A stretch of 7,767 nt of DNA from an uncultured Aquincola sp. (GTDB taxonomy: Bacteria > Pseudomonadota > Gammaproteobacteria > Burkholderiales > Burkholderiaceae), in NCBI GenBank assembly GCA_937883885.1, contig CAKZXL010000584.1:1-7767 (forward strand), read 5' to 3'. Positions 2,327-7,767 of the stretch are shown one piece after another; within the stretch, counting starts at the first letter, position 1; each line of letters opens with the position of its first letter. A model generated the notes under the pieces. It made no database searches. It was not told where the DNA came from and worked only from the letters and a program-made list of their open reading frames with translations. The position numbers were made by a program, and so were the translations under genes.

Positions 2327-5300
2327 ATGTCCGTGCCGCAGTCCCGGGCGAACGGCTGGGCCTCTCGCTCGCTGCTGACGCTGGTGGCCTATCTGGCCAC
2401 CGGCGCCCTCGGCATGCTGGTGACCATCCCGCCCAGCTTCGCCTCGCCGCTGTACCCGGCTGCGGGCCTGGCGCTGGTGGCCGTGCTCACCTGGGGCAAG
2501 CCCGCTGCGCTGGCGGTGGCGCTGGGCTCGGCCTGCATCAACTTCTACCTCAGCGCAAAAACCAGCTTCTCGGCCGCCGCGCTGCTGATGCCGGCCTGCG
2601 CCGGCCTGGGCGCGATGCTGCAGGCGGTGGTGGGCGCCGGGCTGATCCGCCGCTTCGTGCGCCAGCCGCCGCTGCTGGCCGAGCCGCGCGACCTGCTGCG
2701 CTTTTACCTGCTGGCCGCGCTCAGCTGCCTGATCAGCGCCACCGTGGCGCTGGCGGCGCTGACGGCGGTGGGCATCCTGCCGCCGGGCATGCGCCTGGTG
2801 ACCTGGGGAACCTGGGCGGCCGGCGATGCTCTGGGCACGTTGGTGGGCGCGCCGATCGCGCTGACCCTGATCGGCCAGCCGCGCGCCGAATGGACCCGGC
2901 GCCGGCTGACCGTCGGCCTGCCGCTGCTGGTGGTCACGGTGCTGATGGCGCTGGGCATCCAGCAGATGGTGCGCCTGGACGCCGACCGCGAACGCGCCAT
3001 GTTCGAACGCGAGGCGTCCAGCGCCTCGGGCGCGATGCAGGCGCGGCTGCGCGAGCCGCTGCGCGCACTGGAAGCCGTGCACGGCGTGTTCCTCGCCTCG
3101 GATGACGTGACCCGCGCCGAATTCAAGCGCGCCACCGCCGCCTGGCTGTTGCCGGTGCTGGGCGTGGAAGCCCTGGGCTGGCACCAGCGGGTGATGCGCG
3201 CCGACCTGCCGCGCTTCGAGGCGCAGGTGCAGGCCGAAGGCGTGCCGCACTACCGCGTGTTCGACCGCACCGATACCGGCAGCACCGAAGCCGCCAGGCA
3301 CCCCGAGGTCATGGCCATGCGCTTCATCGAACCAGCGTCGGACAACGCCTCCGCGCTGGGCGTCAACGCGCTGTCCATTCCCGCAGCGCGCGATGCCATC
3401 GACGCCAGCACCCGCAGCGGCCTGCCGGTGGCCTCGCCCGGCTTCACGCTGACGCAGGGCGGCACGGGCATCGTGGTGTATCAGGCCGTCTACCACGGCG
3501 AGCCCACCTACGCGGCCGACCGCATCGCCGCCCTGCGCGGCAGCATCTTCGTCACCGTGAGCCTGGACAACCAGGTGCGCGCGGTCGAGGCCTCACTCAC
3601 GGCGCCGCTGGCGCTGTGCATCGTCGACAGGACGCCCGACGCCGCGCTGCCGCGCCTGGGCGGCGAACCGGGCTGCGAGCGGCCGGCGACCAAGCGCAGG
3701 CCGGTGCACGTGCGGCCCATCACCTTCGCCGGCCGGCAGTGGGAAATCCGCGTGCGGCAGAAAGCTGTCGCCGGTTCGGCAGACGCCGTGCTGGGCAACG
3801 CCTGGCCGTTTTCCATCGTCGGCCTGCTGGCCACCGCGATGGTGGGCGCGCTGCTGCTGACGATGACCGGACGCGCCCGCCGCATCGAGCTGGCGGTGAG
3901 CGAACGCACCGCCGACCTGCTGCGCGAGGTGGCCGAACGCAAGCGCACCGAAGCCGCGCTGCGCGAGAGCGAGCACCGCTTTCGCAACATGCTGGACCAC
4001 GTGCCCATCGGCGTGATTTACACCGACCTGGAAGGCCGCATCCGTGAGTCGAATCCGCGGCTGCGCGAGATGACCGGCTATACCGCGGAGGAGCTGGCCG
4101 GCATGGACGCCGCCCTGCTCACCCACCCCGACGACCGCGCCTTCGACCGCGAACTCAACGGCCGCCTGATCCGCGGCGAGATGCCGATGGTGCGGCGCCA
4201 GAAGCGCTACGTCACCCGCGACCAGCGGATGGTGTGGGTGTCGGTGGTGATCACGGTGCTGCGCGACGGCACCGGCGCGCCGCACCGCCTGGTGGGCGTG
4301 GTGGAAGACATCACCGAGCACCTGCGGCTGCAGGACGCCGAACGCGCCCGCGAGACGGCCGAGGCCGCCAACCGCGCCAAGAGCGACTTCCTCTCGCGCA
4401 TGAGCCATGAGCTGCGCACGCCGCTGAACGCGATGCTGGGCTTTGCGCAGCTGCTGGAGCTGGACCGCCAGCAGCCGCTGGCCGGCCACCAGACGGAGTG
4501 GACCGCGCAGATCCAGCAGGCCGGCTGGCACCTGCTGCACATGATCAACGACACGCTGGACCTCTCGCGCATCGAGGCCGGCACGCTGAAGCTGCAGACC
4601 GAGACGCTGGACGTGCCCGAGCTGCTGCGCGCCTGCCGCTCGCTGCTGGAGCACAACGCGCAGCGCCGCGGCGTGACGGTGCATGAGCAGCTCGACCCGC
4701 AGGCCCAGGTGGTGGCGGGCGACCTCACGCGGGTCAAGCAGATCATGACCAACCTGCTGTCCAACGCCATCAAGTACAACCAGCCGGGCGGCCGCGTCAC
4801 CCTCACCAGCGGCCTGGCCGACGCGCAGACGGTGCAGATCGAGGTCAGCGACACCGGCCTGGGCATGAACGAGCAGCAGCTGGCCGACCTGTTCCAGCCT
4901 TTCAACCGGCTGGGGCGCGAAAGCTCGGGCGAAGAAGGCACCGGCATCGGCCTGGTGATCAGCCAGCGGCTGGCCGAGCTGATGGGCGGCACGCTGCGCG
5001 CGCGCAGCGTCGAAGGCCAGGGCTCCACCTTCGTGCTGCAGCTGCCGCGCGGGCGCGCGGGCGCGGCCACCCGGCTGGTGCCGGAAGAAGACAGGCCGGC
5101 GGACGCCGCCTACCGCCGGCGCATCGTGCATTACGTGGAAGACAACGAGACCAATGCCGAGGTGATGCGCGGCATCCTGGCGCAGCGGCCGCAGATCCAG
5201 CTGCAGGTGTCCAGCACGGGCCTGGACGGGCTGGCCGCCATCCGCATCGAACGCCCCAGCCTGGTGCTGCTGGACATGCACCTGCCCGACATCGACGGTC

Positions 5301-5503
5301 TGGAACTGCTGCGCCACCTCAAGGCCGACGAAGGCACGGCAGCCATTCCGGTGGTGGTGGTGTCCGCCGACGCCACCTCGGCACGCATCCGCGAAGCCAT
5401 GGCGGCCGGCGCGGCGCAGTACCTCACCAAGCCGGTGAACGTGGGCGAGATCCTGGCCGTGCTGGACGAGCAGCTGGAAGCGCTGGACACACGCTTCGGC
5501 TAG
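2327..5503 (+). CDS. MASE1-CHASE-PAS hybrid sensor histidine kinase with C-terminal receiver
   Basis: A 1058-residue inner-membrane hybrid kinase. The N-terminal MASE1 domain (about 12-190) holds several hydrophobic helices with [18 protein letters not shown] near its start. One further helix (about 195-213) leads to an extracytoplasmic CHASE domain (about 235-480; [22 protein letters not shown] is characteristic), and helix 493-513 returns to the cytoplasm. A short coiled coil (515-548) precedes a PAS/PAC domain (about 550-670, ending VVEDITEH). HisKA contains SHELRTP with phospho-acceptor His694. The ATPase domain shows an N box (Asn809, Asn813), DTGLGM at 842-847 and GTGIGL at 871-876. The receiver has the acidic pair Glu938/Asp939, phospho-acceptor Asp983, Ser1013 and Lys1035. 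All catalytic residues are intact, so it should be active. A receiver fused to the kinase predicts a phosphorelay through a separate Hpt protein, which is not in this window. Ligands are unknown. The ATG lies 13 bases after ychF with no evident Shine-Dalgarno sequence (pyrimidine-rich spacer), so translation may depend on coupling. Confidence 0.95.
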
Positions 5504-5505
5504 GT

Positions 5506-5527
5506 GCATGCCGCACCGCGGCAGTGC
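5506..5527 (+). other. Bulged hairpin directly after the hybrid kinase stop
   Basis: GCA+TGCCGC (5506-5514) pairs with GCGGCA+TGC (5518-5527) around a 3-base ACC loop, giving nine base pairs with a single bulged G at 5524. It begins three bases after the kinase stop codon. No T-run follows (GAATTACAG), so it is not a textbook intrinsic terminator. It could still act as a 3'-end stabiliser or a Rho-assisted end. Confidence 0.4.
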
Positions 5528-5531
5528 GAAT

Positions 5532-5559
5532 TACAGAAAGCCACGACAAGGGCCGAAAG
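5532..5559 (+). promoter_or_regulatory. Possible sigma-28 (FliA-type) promoter for the chemoreceptor gene
   Basis: GCCGAAAG at 5552-5559 matches the flagellar sigma-28 -10 consensus GCCGATAA at six of eight positions. TACA at 5532-5535 matches the -35 core TAAA at three of four, but with a 16-base gap rather than the usual 15. Chemoreceptor genes are commonly sigma-28 dependent, which favours the call. The match is imperfect and could arise by chance. Initiation here would begin near 5566, leaving a leader of about 55 bases before the GTG at 5623. Confidence 0.25.
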
Positions 5560-5570
5560 CGCTGCATGAA

Positions 5571-5593
5571 GCCGGCCCCCACCGGGGCCTGGC
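5571..5593 (+). other. Second bulged hairpin, ahead of the chemoreceptor start
   Basis: GCC+GGCCCC (5571-5579) pairs with GGGGCC+GGC (5584-5593) around the loop CACC, with one bulged T at 5590. Like the hairpin at 5506 it has nine pairs and a single bulge on the 3' side. It lies 29 bases before the preferred GTG start and 15 before the AGGAG ribosome site. No T-run follows, so it is better read as a leader structure than a terminator. Confidence 0.4.
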
Positions 5594-5608
5594 ATGTCGT
5601 CGTCATCC

Positions 5609-5613
5609 AGGAG
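5609..5613 (+). promoter_or_regulatory. Ribosome binding site that decides the chemoreceptor start
   Basis: AGGAG, nine bases before the GTG at 5623, is the only strong Shine-Dalgarno sequence upstream of the chemoreceptor. The in-frame GTG at 5524 and ATG at 5566 have no comparable site. The residues they would add are not chemoreceptor-like, whereas the GTG at 5623 leads straight into a basic stretch and TM1. Confidence 0.6.
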
Positions 5614-5622
5614 CCCGCTGCC

Positions 5623-7248
5623 GTGATCCGCCCTGTGCGCAACTTGTCCGTGCGAACCCGCTTTTATCTGGTGATGGGCATCGTCAGCCTGTCCTTGCTG
5701 GTGCTGGGCGTCTGGAGCCTGCTGGACAGCCGAACGGCCAACGGCCCGGTGGCCCGGCTGTTCGACCAGGCGATGGCCGCCTCCGGCCAGGTGGGCGACC
5801 TGCGCGAATCGCTGTCGGCGCTGCGCCGCTTCGAGGCCGCGATGATCGCCACCGCCGTGTCCAATCCCACCGAGGTCGACCCGCTGCACCAGCAATGGAA
5901 AAAGCAGCTCGAACGGCTGAAATCCGCCGGCGCGCAACTGGTGAGCGACAACCCCGGCAACCCGCAGCTGGCCGAACTGATCGCCACCCAGGACAAGCTG
6001 CTGGGCGAGTACGCCGGCGCGATCGACCCCATCGCGGTGCAGCTGAAGGAGGCCAAGATGGACGCCTCGGCCGGCCTGGCCTACGCCCAGCGCGCCAACG
6101 ACACGCTGGAAGCGCTGCAGGCCAACGCCAGCGCGCTGCTGAAGGCCCAGCACGCCCATGCCGACCAGCTGCGCGCCGACATCGCGGCCGAAACCGCCGC
6201 CGCCGCCTGGGCCCGGCTGGCCCTGGTGGCTGCCACGCTGCTGGTGGTGCTGCCCTTGATGGTGGCCACGCTGCGCACCGTCTGCGGCCCGCTGGACCGC
6301 GCGGTGCTGGTCACCCGCCGCATTGCCGACGGCGACCTCACCAGCCGCATCGACACCCGCGGCAGCGACGAGCCGGCCCGGCTGCTGCAGGGCCTGGCCG
6401 ACATGCAGGCCGCGCTCAGCCGCCTGGTGGGCCAGGTGCGCGCGTCGTCGGCCAGCATCGAAGCCGCCTCGCGCGAGGTGGCCAGCGGCAACCTGGACCT
6501 GAGCCACCGCACCGAGCAGGCGGCCAAGCACCTGCAGAGCACCGCCTCGGCGATGGAAGAGCTGAGCGCCAAGGTGCGCCATTCGGCCGAGTCGGCCGCC
6601 ACCGCCAACCACCTGGCCGGTTCCGCCTCGTCGGTGGCCGAACGGGGCGGCACCGTGGTGGGCGACGTGGTGGCCACGATGACCGACATCCACGGCAGCT
6701 CCCAACGCATCGCCGACATCATCGCCACCATCGACGGCATCGCCTTTCAGACCAACATCCTGGCGCTCAATGCCGCGGTGGAGGCGGCCCGGGCCGGCGA
6801 GCAGGGCCGCGGCTTCGCCGTGGTGGCCGGCGAGGTGCGCAGCCTGGCCCAGCGCAGCGCCGGGGCGGCGCGCGAGATCAAGCAGCTGATCGGCGCCAGC
6901 GTCGAGCGGGTGGACGCGGGCACCCGGCTGGTCAACAACGCCGGCGGCACCATGGGCGAGATCGTGTCCAGCGTGCAGAAGGTGCGCGACATGATCGGCG
7001 GCATCACCGCCGTCAGCGGCACCCAGAGCCAGGACCTGGCGCAGATCAGCGGGGCCATCACCCAGCTCGACCAGGTGACGCAGCAGAACGCGGCGCTGGT
7101 GGAAGAGTCGGCCGCGGCGGCCGAATCGCTCAAGGCCCAGGCCGAGGCCTTGGCCGCGGTGGTGGCCACCTTCCGGCTGCAGGGCGAAGGTCACTCGGCG
7201 GCGGCCGCCGGGAACCAACACGTGAGCGCACACTCTCACGCGGAATGA
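5623..7248 (+). CDS. Methyl-accepting chemotaxis protein (Tsr-like 36H signalling class)
   Basis: A 541-residue transmembrane chemoreceptor when started at GTG 5623. Layout: basic N-terminus, TM1 (about 14-34), an extracytoplasmic helical sensor of about 160 residues (35-195) resembling a four-helix bundle, TM2 (about 197-218), HAMP (about 218-270), then the long antiparallel coiled-coil signalling domain. The hairpin tip is nearly identical to that of enterobacterial receptors: [20 protein letters not shown] starting at residue 370, then [16 protein letters not shown], the segment that contacts CheA and CheW. Methylation-helix features flank it (ASAMEEL on the descending helix, [17 protein letters not shown] on the ascending one). 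The C-terminus is Ala/His-rich and lacks an NWETF-type pentapeptide, so CheR/CheB tethering through that motif is not expected. The ligand is unknown. It follows the hybrid kinase on the same strand after a spacer with its own structures, so it is probably expressed at least partly on its own. Starting at 5566 or 5524 would give 560 or 574 residues. Confidence 0.95.
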
Positions 7249-7296: not shown

Positions 7297-7323
7297 TCAG
7301 CACTCTCGGACGCCGAGTGCTAA
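7297..7323 (+). promoter_or_regulatory. CIRCE element (HrcA operator) upstream of rpoH
   Basis: TCAGCACTC (7297-7305), nine bases, then GAGTGCTAA (7315-7323). The CIRCE consensus is TTAGCACTC-N9-GAGTGCTAA, so 17 of 18 arm positions match, with the exact 9-base spacer; only the second base differs (C for T). HrcA binds CIRCE as a dimer and represses transcription until heat shock or other protein damage ties up GroEL, which HrcA needs for activity. The element ends 40 bases before the rpoH ATG and overlaps the likely -10, so binding should block RNA polymerase. hrcA itself is not in the window. Confidence 0.92.
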
Positions 7324-7326
7324 TAT
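7318..7326 (+). promoter_or_regulatory. Probable extended -10 promoter for rpoH
   Basis: TGC-TAATAT, an extended -10 motif (TGn plus a TATAAT-like hexamer at 7321-7326), whose first bases are also the end of the CIRCE right arm. No good -35 is present at 16-18 bases upstream (the region is the left CIRCE arm), fitting an extended -10 promoter. Expected initiation is around 7332-7334, giving a leader of about 30 bases. No clear sigma-32 or sigma-E promoter is seen nearby. Confidence 0.5.
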
Positions 7327-7355
7327 CCTGGAACCTTCTGCGGAACACACTGTCT

Positions 7356-7360
7356 GAGGA
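7356..7360 (+). promoter_or_regulatory. Ribosome binding site of rpoH
   Basis: GAGGA, only three bases (ACC) before the ATG at 7364. The core is strong but the spacing is shorter than usual, which may lower basal initiation. In E. coli rpoH translation is thermally controlled by mRNA structure; I cannot establish whether that applies here. Confidence 0.6.
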
Positions 7361-7363
7361 ACC

Positions 7364-7767
7364 ATGACTTCTACCACTGCCTCTGCGATCGCCGTGCGTG
7401 ACCCGTGGGCGTTGGTGCCGCCGATCGGCAACCTCGACGCCTACATCTCGGCGGTGAACCGCATTCCCCTGCTCACGCAGGAAGAAGAAACCCGCTTCGC
7501 GCGCAAGCTGCGCGACGAAGCCGACGTGGAAAGCGCCGGCCGCCTGGTGATGAGCCACCTGCGCCTGGTGGTGTCGCTGTCGCGCCAGTACCTGGGCTAC
7601 GGCCTGCCGCAATCCGACCTGATCCAGGAAGGCAACGTTGGCCTGATGAAGGCGGTCAAGCGCTTCGACCCCGACCAGGGCGTGCGCCTGGTCAGCTACG
7701 CCATGCACTGGATCAAGGCCGAGATCCACGAGTACATCCTGAAGAACTGGCGCATGGTCAAGGTGGC
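7364..7767 (+). CDS. rpoH: RNA polymerase heat-shock sigma factor RpoH (sigma-32), 3' truncated by the window
   Basis: The first 134 residues of a sigma-70 group 3 factor that directs polymerase to heat-shock promoters (chaperones and proteases). The match to RpoH is colinear from the N-terminus: [18 protein letters not shown] (residues 20-37) corresponds to the PVGNLDSYIRAANAWPML region of E. coli RpoH. It is followed by [20 protein letters not shown] and [19 protein letters not shown] of region 2.1/2.2 (core-polymerase binding), then [20 protein letters not shown] of region 2.3/2.4 (-10 recognition and melting). The full protein is normally about 285-310 residues, so regions 3 and 4 lie beyond the window edge. 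The ATG at 7364 has GAGGA just upstream and gives an N-terminal extension of a few residues compared with E. coli. Its promoter region holds a CIRCE element, implying HrcA repression. Confidence 0.97.

Follow-up and report, generated by a model that had tools for sequence, protein, structure and literature searches.

A predicted CIRCE operator upstream of rpoH in Aquincola and its conservation in relatives that retain hrcA

A CIRCE repeat, the operator of the repressor HrcA, lies 40 bp before rpoH (sigma-32) in the stretch of Aquincola DNA analysed here, which comprises 7767 bases and is called the window below. The repeat is conserved before rpoH in most related genomes, its occurrence is tied to that of hrcA, and the two closest genomes possess just one further CIRCE, at groES. 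On this sequence evidence the repeat is very probably a working HrcA operator, through which HrcA would repress the transcription of rpoH and from which it would be released on folding stress.

The repeat at 7297-7323 and its surroundings

The window repeat is composed of TCAGCACTC-N9-GAGTGCTAA and differs from the CIRCE consensus at one arm base. The window was scanned with the inverted repeat TTAGCACTC-N9-GAGTGCTAA (18 arm bases, 9-base spacer), and a single match with up to three mismatches was found across its length, namely TCAGCACTCTCGGACGCCGAGTGCTAA at 7297-7323, with 1 of 18 arm bases off. None of 200 dinucleotide shuffles of the window yielded any match at the same threshold, and the chance expectation from the window composition (70% GC) is 7e-7 sites with at most one mismatch. 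The site shows two features expected of a CIRCE operator: an inverted repeat with 17 of 18 consensus arm bases around a 9-base spacer, and a position within a heat-shock promoter region. The preliminary description of this DNA had reported a near-consensus CIRCE here and 40 bases between the repeat and the rpoH ATG, and both statements were confirmed, the ATG being at 7364. The features of the region are as follows.

1219-2313: ychF GTPase gene (TIGR00092, over cut-off)
2327-5503: hybrid sensor kinase gene, 1058 aa, after ychF
5524-7248, + strand: methyl-accepting chemotaxis protein gene, start codon unsettled, upstream of rpoH
7297-7323, no strand: predicted CIRCE operator (HrcA site), with left arm 7297-7305, spacer 7306-7314 and right arm 7315-7323
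7364-7767, + strand: rpoH (sigma-32), first 134 codons, extending past the window end (profile match)

The operator sits inside the 115-bp gap between the end of the chemotaxis-receptor gene at 7248 and the start of the rpoH reading frame at 7364. This frame of 134 aa was identified as the N-terminus of sigma-32 by TIGR02392 (rpoH_proteo, E 1e-59), reaching 202 of the 323 cut-off bits. The full-length relative at an Aquincola tertiaricarbonis locus (L001), which is the best named match by RpoH residues, clears the TIGR02392 cut-off and is 96% identical to the window RpoH residues. Genome G258 is closer to the window than L001, with 11 differences in 402 rpoH bases versus 31. A stretch matching the chemotaxis gene of the window also precedes rpoH in L001, and in several relatives the rpoH locus has a ychF match as well.

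Conservation of CIRCE before rpoH

The search for a CIRCE up to 400 bp away from rpoH was positive in 79 of 80 related loci (the first set), 62 of the sites being perfect, 16 having one mismatch and 1 having two, and all 79 sites are located 24-66 bp upstream of the window-aligned rpoH start. A separate relatives search gave a CIRCE with at most one mismatch in 31 of the 32 further rpoH loci examined, the remaining locus being truncated by a contig end; L362, among the 31 positives, duplicates L001. This search left out G280 and G287, the order-sample genomes, the genomes of L002 and genomes without rpoH over the cut-off. The site is present at 88 of 98 rpoH loci in a sample drawn evenly from the order, and at 72 of 102 in a class-wide sample. 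The preliminary description had made its claim depend on conservation of the repeat upstream of rpoH in close relatives and had suspected a lineage trait; the counts in the related and order loci bear out the first point, and the second was right, the class loci extending the trait beyond the order.

The arms are near-invariant and the spacers variable across three sets of rpoH sites (first set, 79 sites; order, 88; class, 39). Likewise, the window and its closest relatives L001 and L370 have identical arms and different spacers, so conserved arms and a free spacer, as expected of a CIRCE among relatives, were observed. The only locus among the 80 with no CIRCE before rpoH is L076 (Allofranklinella). 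It keeps hrcA and a groES CIRCE, and GGAACTT remains upstream of position 2289, before rpoH. Since a CIRCE before rpoH is kept in most relatives that retain HrcA, the rpoH operator looks like an old working control and not a curiosity of one strain.

A second rpoH-like gene with a one-mismatch CIRCE was seen on another contig of G035 (L130), representing either a paralogue or a mixed assembly.

Co-occurrence with hrcA

In the order sample, a CIRCE with at most four mismatches was present at all 88 rpoH loci of genomes with intact hrcA and at none of the 10 loci of genomes without it (Fisher test 7e-14, kinship ignored). The ten loci without intact hrcA comprise nine genomes in which no hrcA was found and G241, which has an hrcA fragment with a stop. 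Among the 100 evenly drawn genomes, rpoH was over the cut-off in 98 and hrcA was found in 91, one of these broken. The 98 rpoH loci come from 97 genomes, G205 being counted twice; G001 had already entered the first set as L001, and G188 and G203 possess hrcA and no rpoH over the cut-off.

The association is looser in the class sample, where CIRCE was found at 68 of 75 rpoH loci with hrcA and at 4 of 27 without detected hrcA. This sample consists of 102 loci from 101 genomes (G076 twice; G001 and G137 excluded), rpoH being over the cut-off in 103 of 114 genomes. Class and order are as grouped by the search tool, the class presumably corresponding to GTDB Gammaproteobacteria. Confinement of the operator to HrcA-bearing genomes, another feature of CIRCE, was observed in the order sample and less strictly in the class sample, where the exceptions are the seven loci with hrcA and no site and the four sites in genomes without detected hrcA. 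Among the former, L337 has a half-site, L173 a version with an 8-base spacer, and L293 is one of two rpoH copies in its genome, the other of which does have a CIRCE.

To relate these patterns to descent, an RpoH tree was used. In the order sample it shows only four changes, with three pairs on supported branches, all agreeing; with so few, a sign test cannot reach 0.05. In the class tree one supported pair was obtainable, with agreement in 146 of 200 draws, too few for significance. The agreement between hrcA and CIRCE is clear, yet it rests on few separate events.

Decayed sites were also found. L250, of the hrcA-less genome G192, has a 5-mismatch remnant before rpoH and retains GGAACTT-N16-TCATA and TGATAAAAT. 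The same holds more generally for L250, L299 and L304, all without detected hrcA, in which a decayed operator-like sequence precedes rpoH and GAACTT-N16-TCNNA is kept; TGnTAAAAT is retained at the decayed sites of L250 and L299.

Each of the closest genomes, G258 and G001, possesses one intact hrcA. In G001 it is over the TIGR00331 cut-off and adjoins genes which, named by eye, are nadK- and recN-like. The check for an hrcA gene proposed in the preliminary description was made in these relatives and proved positive. Its proposal that HrcA would repress rpoH gains support from the presence of hrcA and the conservation of the repeat, both seen in relatives.

CIRCE sites elsewhere in the genomes

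Among 46 genomes scanned at up to two mismatches, 38 have two CIRCEs, 3 have one and 5 have three. The reversed-pattern control gave no match in any of the 46; in a set of eight genomes it gave one match each in G265 and G288. A looser pattern, which was used for no count given here, matched in its reversed form in 10 of 100 genomes. The checked loci numbered 61, a tally in which part of the 46 genomes are represented without their second site, and were distributed as 33 groES, 23 rpoH, 4 other and 1 undecided at a contig end.

G258 and G001 have two CIRCEs only, at rpoH and groES, and no third at up to three mismatches, hence none at hrcA or dnaK. Autoregulation of hrcA through CIRCE was also considered and set aside, as the closest matches across ten hrcA loci have 6 to 8 mismatches. 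The fixed CIRCE set is rpoH and groESL, without an hrcA site, and in G258 and G001 there is no other.

Upstream of the groES CIRCE, the consensus of 33 sites has GAAA followed by CCTTAT-like bases, resembling a sigma-32 promoter; from this resemblance, sigma-32 and HrcA would meet at groES too.

Promoter elements around the operator

Three candidate promoter elements were identified in the window.

7318-7326, + strand: TGCTAATAT, candidate sigma-70 extended -10 sharing the right arm of the operator (from sequence)
7330-7336, + strand: GGAACCT, putative -35 of a promoter of the sigma-E (RpoE) type, at a place common to relatives
7353-7357, + strand: TCTGA, candidate -10 of the same sigma-E-type promoter, separated by 16 bp from the -35 upstream and by 6 bp from the ATG downstream

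The motif TGCTAA[ACT]AT is completed just after the right arm at 76 of 79 rpoH sites in the first set, 68 of 88 in the order and 23 of 39 in the class, compared with 1 of 33 groES sites. Scanning found no TTGACA/TATAAT pair, and a sigma-70 promoter with a -35 was rejected on this ground; an extended -10 alone is proposed.

The other recurrent motif consists of a GAAC-type -35 followed 15-17 bases on, mostly 16 in the first set, by TCNNA. It agrees with the sigma-E consensus. It lies over the rpoH CIRCE at 44 of 79 sites in the first set, 50 of 88 in the order and 29 of 39 in the class, where promoter counts use the first 42 class loci with their 39 sites. The corresponding background windows contain it in 3 of 548, 5 of 606 and 1 of 272 cases, and it was found over none of the 33 groES CIRCEs. 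In the first set, which is mostly Comamonadaceae, the start of the -35 usually precedes the repeat by 12 bases, as in 39 of 44 motifs, and TCNNA falls within the spacer. TCNNA straddling the left arm and spacer was observed at 58 of 88 order sites and 31 of 39 class sites.

By eye, the window has no GGAACTT-N16-TCNNA at this usual place over the operator. Its sigma-E-like match, with the same spacing, is at 7330-7357, a position common to its clade. In the window only the extended -10 overlaps the operator, and the sigma-E-like motif is situated just downstream. GGAAC occurs at CIRCE +32 to +34 as in the window in L001, L010, L017, L020, L044, L047, L061 and L370. In the first set 12 sequences have GGAAC at this position, with TCNNA 16-17 bp on in 8 of the 12 and lacking there in L012, L038, L040 and L046. 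The ATG follows TCNNA by 5 to 7 bases in L001, L010, L017, L020, L044, L047 and L061, and L370 has the same arrangement as the window. Judged from these positions, the sigma-E-type promoter of the window clade would possibly give a leaderless or nearly leaderless rpoH mRNA. In L034 the start comes one base after TCNNA. An ordinary ribosome-binding purine run is seen by eye in this stretch of both L034 and L386, and the sigma-E-like match in these two is possibly due to chance.

Proposed mechanism and alternative explanations

We infer HrcA binding, the repression, its signal and the promoter used as follows. At rest, an HrcA dimer would occupy 7297-7323, including the -10-like element at 7318-7326, and would abut or crowd the sigma-E-like promoter at 7330-7357, lowering the transcription of rpoH. 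Once the chaperonin is taken up by unfolded protein, or HrcA itself is affected by heat, HrcA would leave both rpoH and groESL. The extra sigma-32 would then drive chaperone and protease genes, with sigma-32 and GroEL increasing together, and repression by HrcA would come back when GroEL is restored. The GroEL-titration step is taken over from the Bacillus model and would hold here by analogy.

Among the alternatives, the one that survives best keeps HrcA as repressor of rpoH and lets it sense temperature directly, with GroEL titration in a minor role. We regard this as rather unlikely, with a real share of the probability. An intrinsic-thermosensor HrcA has been described for Campylobacter jejuni (PMC8533110), and the sequence data presented here tell the direct-temperature and GroEL signals apart in no way. 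Against it, the second fixed target of CIRCE is groESL, which fits a GroEL feedback loop on HrcA as known in Bacillus.

It is very improbable that the repeat serves as a hairpin of the rpoH leader RNA, as a thermometer or stability element, instead of a DNA operator. The arms are able to pair, and CIRCE in mRNA influences stability in some Firmicutes. However, the arm changes among the 206 rpoH sites are mostly one-sided, 47 breaking a pair and 67 leading to G-U, and among the double changes 6 are paired and 2 unpaired. The occurrence of the site also follows the hrcA gene. Moreover, the predicted promoters would initiate within or past the repeat, in which case the transcript would lack at least part of the hairpin. 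The hairpin was set aside on the one-sided arm changes together with the lack of a match between the window and any Rfam family at gathering score.

A functionless relic, or a target of another factor, has about as little in its favour. L076 has lost the site while retaining hrcA, which means that the site is not always needed. On the other side, near-fixed arms with free spacers in three sets, together with joint loss with hrcA, are unlike a relic, and in the hrcA-less G192 the site is decayed while promoter-like elements are still present. Control chiefly of something besides rpoH, such as a transcript that lies upstream or is divergent, is the least credible explanation: a palindromic site has no inherent direction, but the distance of 24-66 bp to the aligned rpoH start (79 of 79) persists while the upstream neighbour varies (the ychF match of L010 ends at 5870, directly ahead of rpoH, where the window has kinase and receptor genes between), and the upstream gene of the window is on the same strand as rpoH.

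Teaching usually presents HrcA and sigma-32 as alternative routes to the heat-shock response. If HrcA controls rpoH across the group, the two form one cascade there, in which the repressor would set the amount of the activator and one chaperonin could report to both. Repression of rpoH by HrcA also gives a clear prediction for lineages without hrcA. As a tentative extension, which we consider somewhat doubtful, HrcA may gate a relay from sigma-E to sigma-32, with a leaderless rpoH in the window clade and mobile defence operons that have joined the rpoH and groESL regulon. With such a gate, rpoH of the relatives whose sigma-E promoter is threaded through the operator would fire from this promoter only when envelope stress and a short cytoplasmic folding capacity come together. 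One operator, two promoters and one reporter would provide an easy test bed for how the cell merges envelope and cytoplasmic stress.

Comparison with known systems

Classical CIRCE sites, in Bacillus and others, are situated before groESL and hrcA/dnaK. The sites described here resemble them in the 9-9-9 operator and in groESL as a common target. They differ in having a sigma-factor gene as additional target and in that G258 and G001 have no CIRCE at hrcA/dnaK (up to three mismatches).

Control of rpoH by sigma-E is known from the E. coli promoter rpoHP3. In Bordetella bronchiseptica, fam (rpoH) is transcribed by SigE in vitro (PMC3490749), and the words HrcA and CIRCE are absent from the text of that article. 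In likeness to the sigma-E-controlled rpoH of these two species, more than half of the relatives' sites carry a GGAACTT-N16-TCNNA-like motif. There it passes across the operator, whereas in the window clade it lies just downstream, with its -10 six bases before the ATG.

A CIRCE before rpoH is itself already known. In Rodionov et al. 2004 (PMC545781), a perfect CIRCE is predicted before rpoH of Geobacter sulfurreducens at position -51, and groESL is also a target, the same pair as here. There are two differences: hrcA-grpE-dnaK-dnaJ of G. sulfurreducens has a CIRCE, whereas the ten hrcA loci here have nothing better than 6 mismatches, and the table in PMC545781 gives an rpoH CIRCE in G. sulfurreducens only, compared with 88 of 98 rpoH loci in our order sample. 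An earlier report for the betaproteobacteria may exist, the most likely one, by its title, being Permina and Gelfand 2003 on beta-, gamma- and epsilon-proteobacteria. One table in PMC3135505 records one HrcA each in Laribacter and Chromobacterium and none in two Neisseria. PMC5343134 and PMC3840689 mention neither HrcA nor rpoH, and our searches of open-licence papers did not find the breadth of the rpoH CIRCE, the co-loss with hrcA or the interlock with sigma-E in print.

CIRCE at defence-type genes and in viral contigs

The four CIRCE loci of the 61 that are at neither rpoH nor groES precede two CD-NTase (CBASS cyclase) genes and two MBL-type genes. One-mismatch CIRCEs are located directly before the CD-NTase genes of two genomes (L139:1001-1027 and L143:1001-1027). 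These genes were identified by PADLOC Cyclase matches of 4.9e-110 in L139 and 6.7e-139 in L143, the latter also containing SMODS. Three plasmid homologues of the CD-NTase (L407-L409) showed no CIRCE.

The other two sites, L134:1001-1027 and L145:1001-1027, have two mismatches each and precede related MBL-type genes. The MBL-fold assignment of these genes is based on a THADxDHI-type motif and on RTasMBL and LmuA, both matched weakly by PADLOC; Pfam gave no match. On pPNAP01, a plasmid of Polaromonas naphthalenivorans, a perfect CIRCE (L403:5924-5950) is situated 38 bp before an MBL homologue, after which comes a ThiF/E1 gene, and a one-mismatch CIRCE precedes the homologue in G238 (L410:1434-1460). 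Five other MBL homologues (L404, L405, L406, L411 and the partial L412) showed no CIRCE. A close MBL homologue was present in only 3 of 399 genomes of the order and in none of the viral contigs or phage records. Phages often require GroEL, and for this reason a defence operon gated by HrcA would make sense; CIRCE control of some defence-type operons is a lead and not a result.

In viral contigs, 104 stretches with an exact CIRCE were found. Among the 80 of them listed, groES is within 1200 bp of the CIRCE in 8, with groEL as well in 6, and none matches hrcA, rpoH, the two CD-NTases or the MBL protein. One viral contig has three exact CIRCEs with 49-base spacing (L437:5424-5548), in a stretch where no relative of groES, hrcA or rpoH was found.

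The 5' region of rpoH

The first 72 bases of rpoH (7364-7435) show no difference to L370 and one to L001, and the next 330 bases show 11 differences to L370 and 30 to L001 (Fisher p 0.026 for L001). The RNA 7332-7560 folds better than its shuffles, with a z of -2.98. The 5' end of rpoH is possibly under constraint at the base level, for example as an rpoH mRNA thermosensor.
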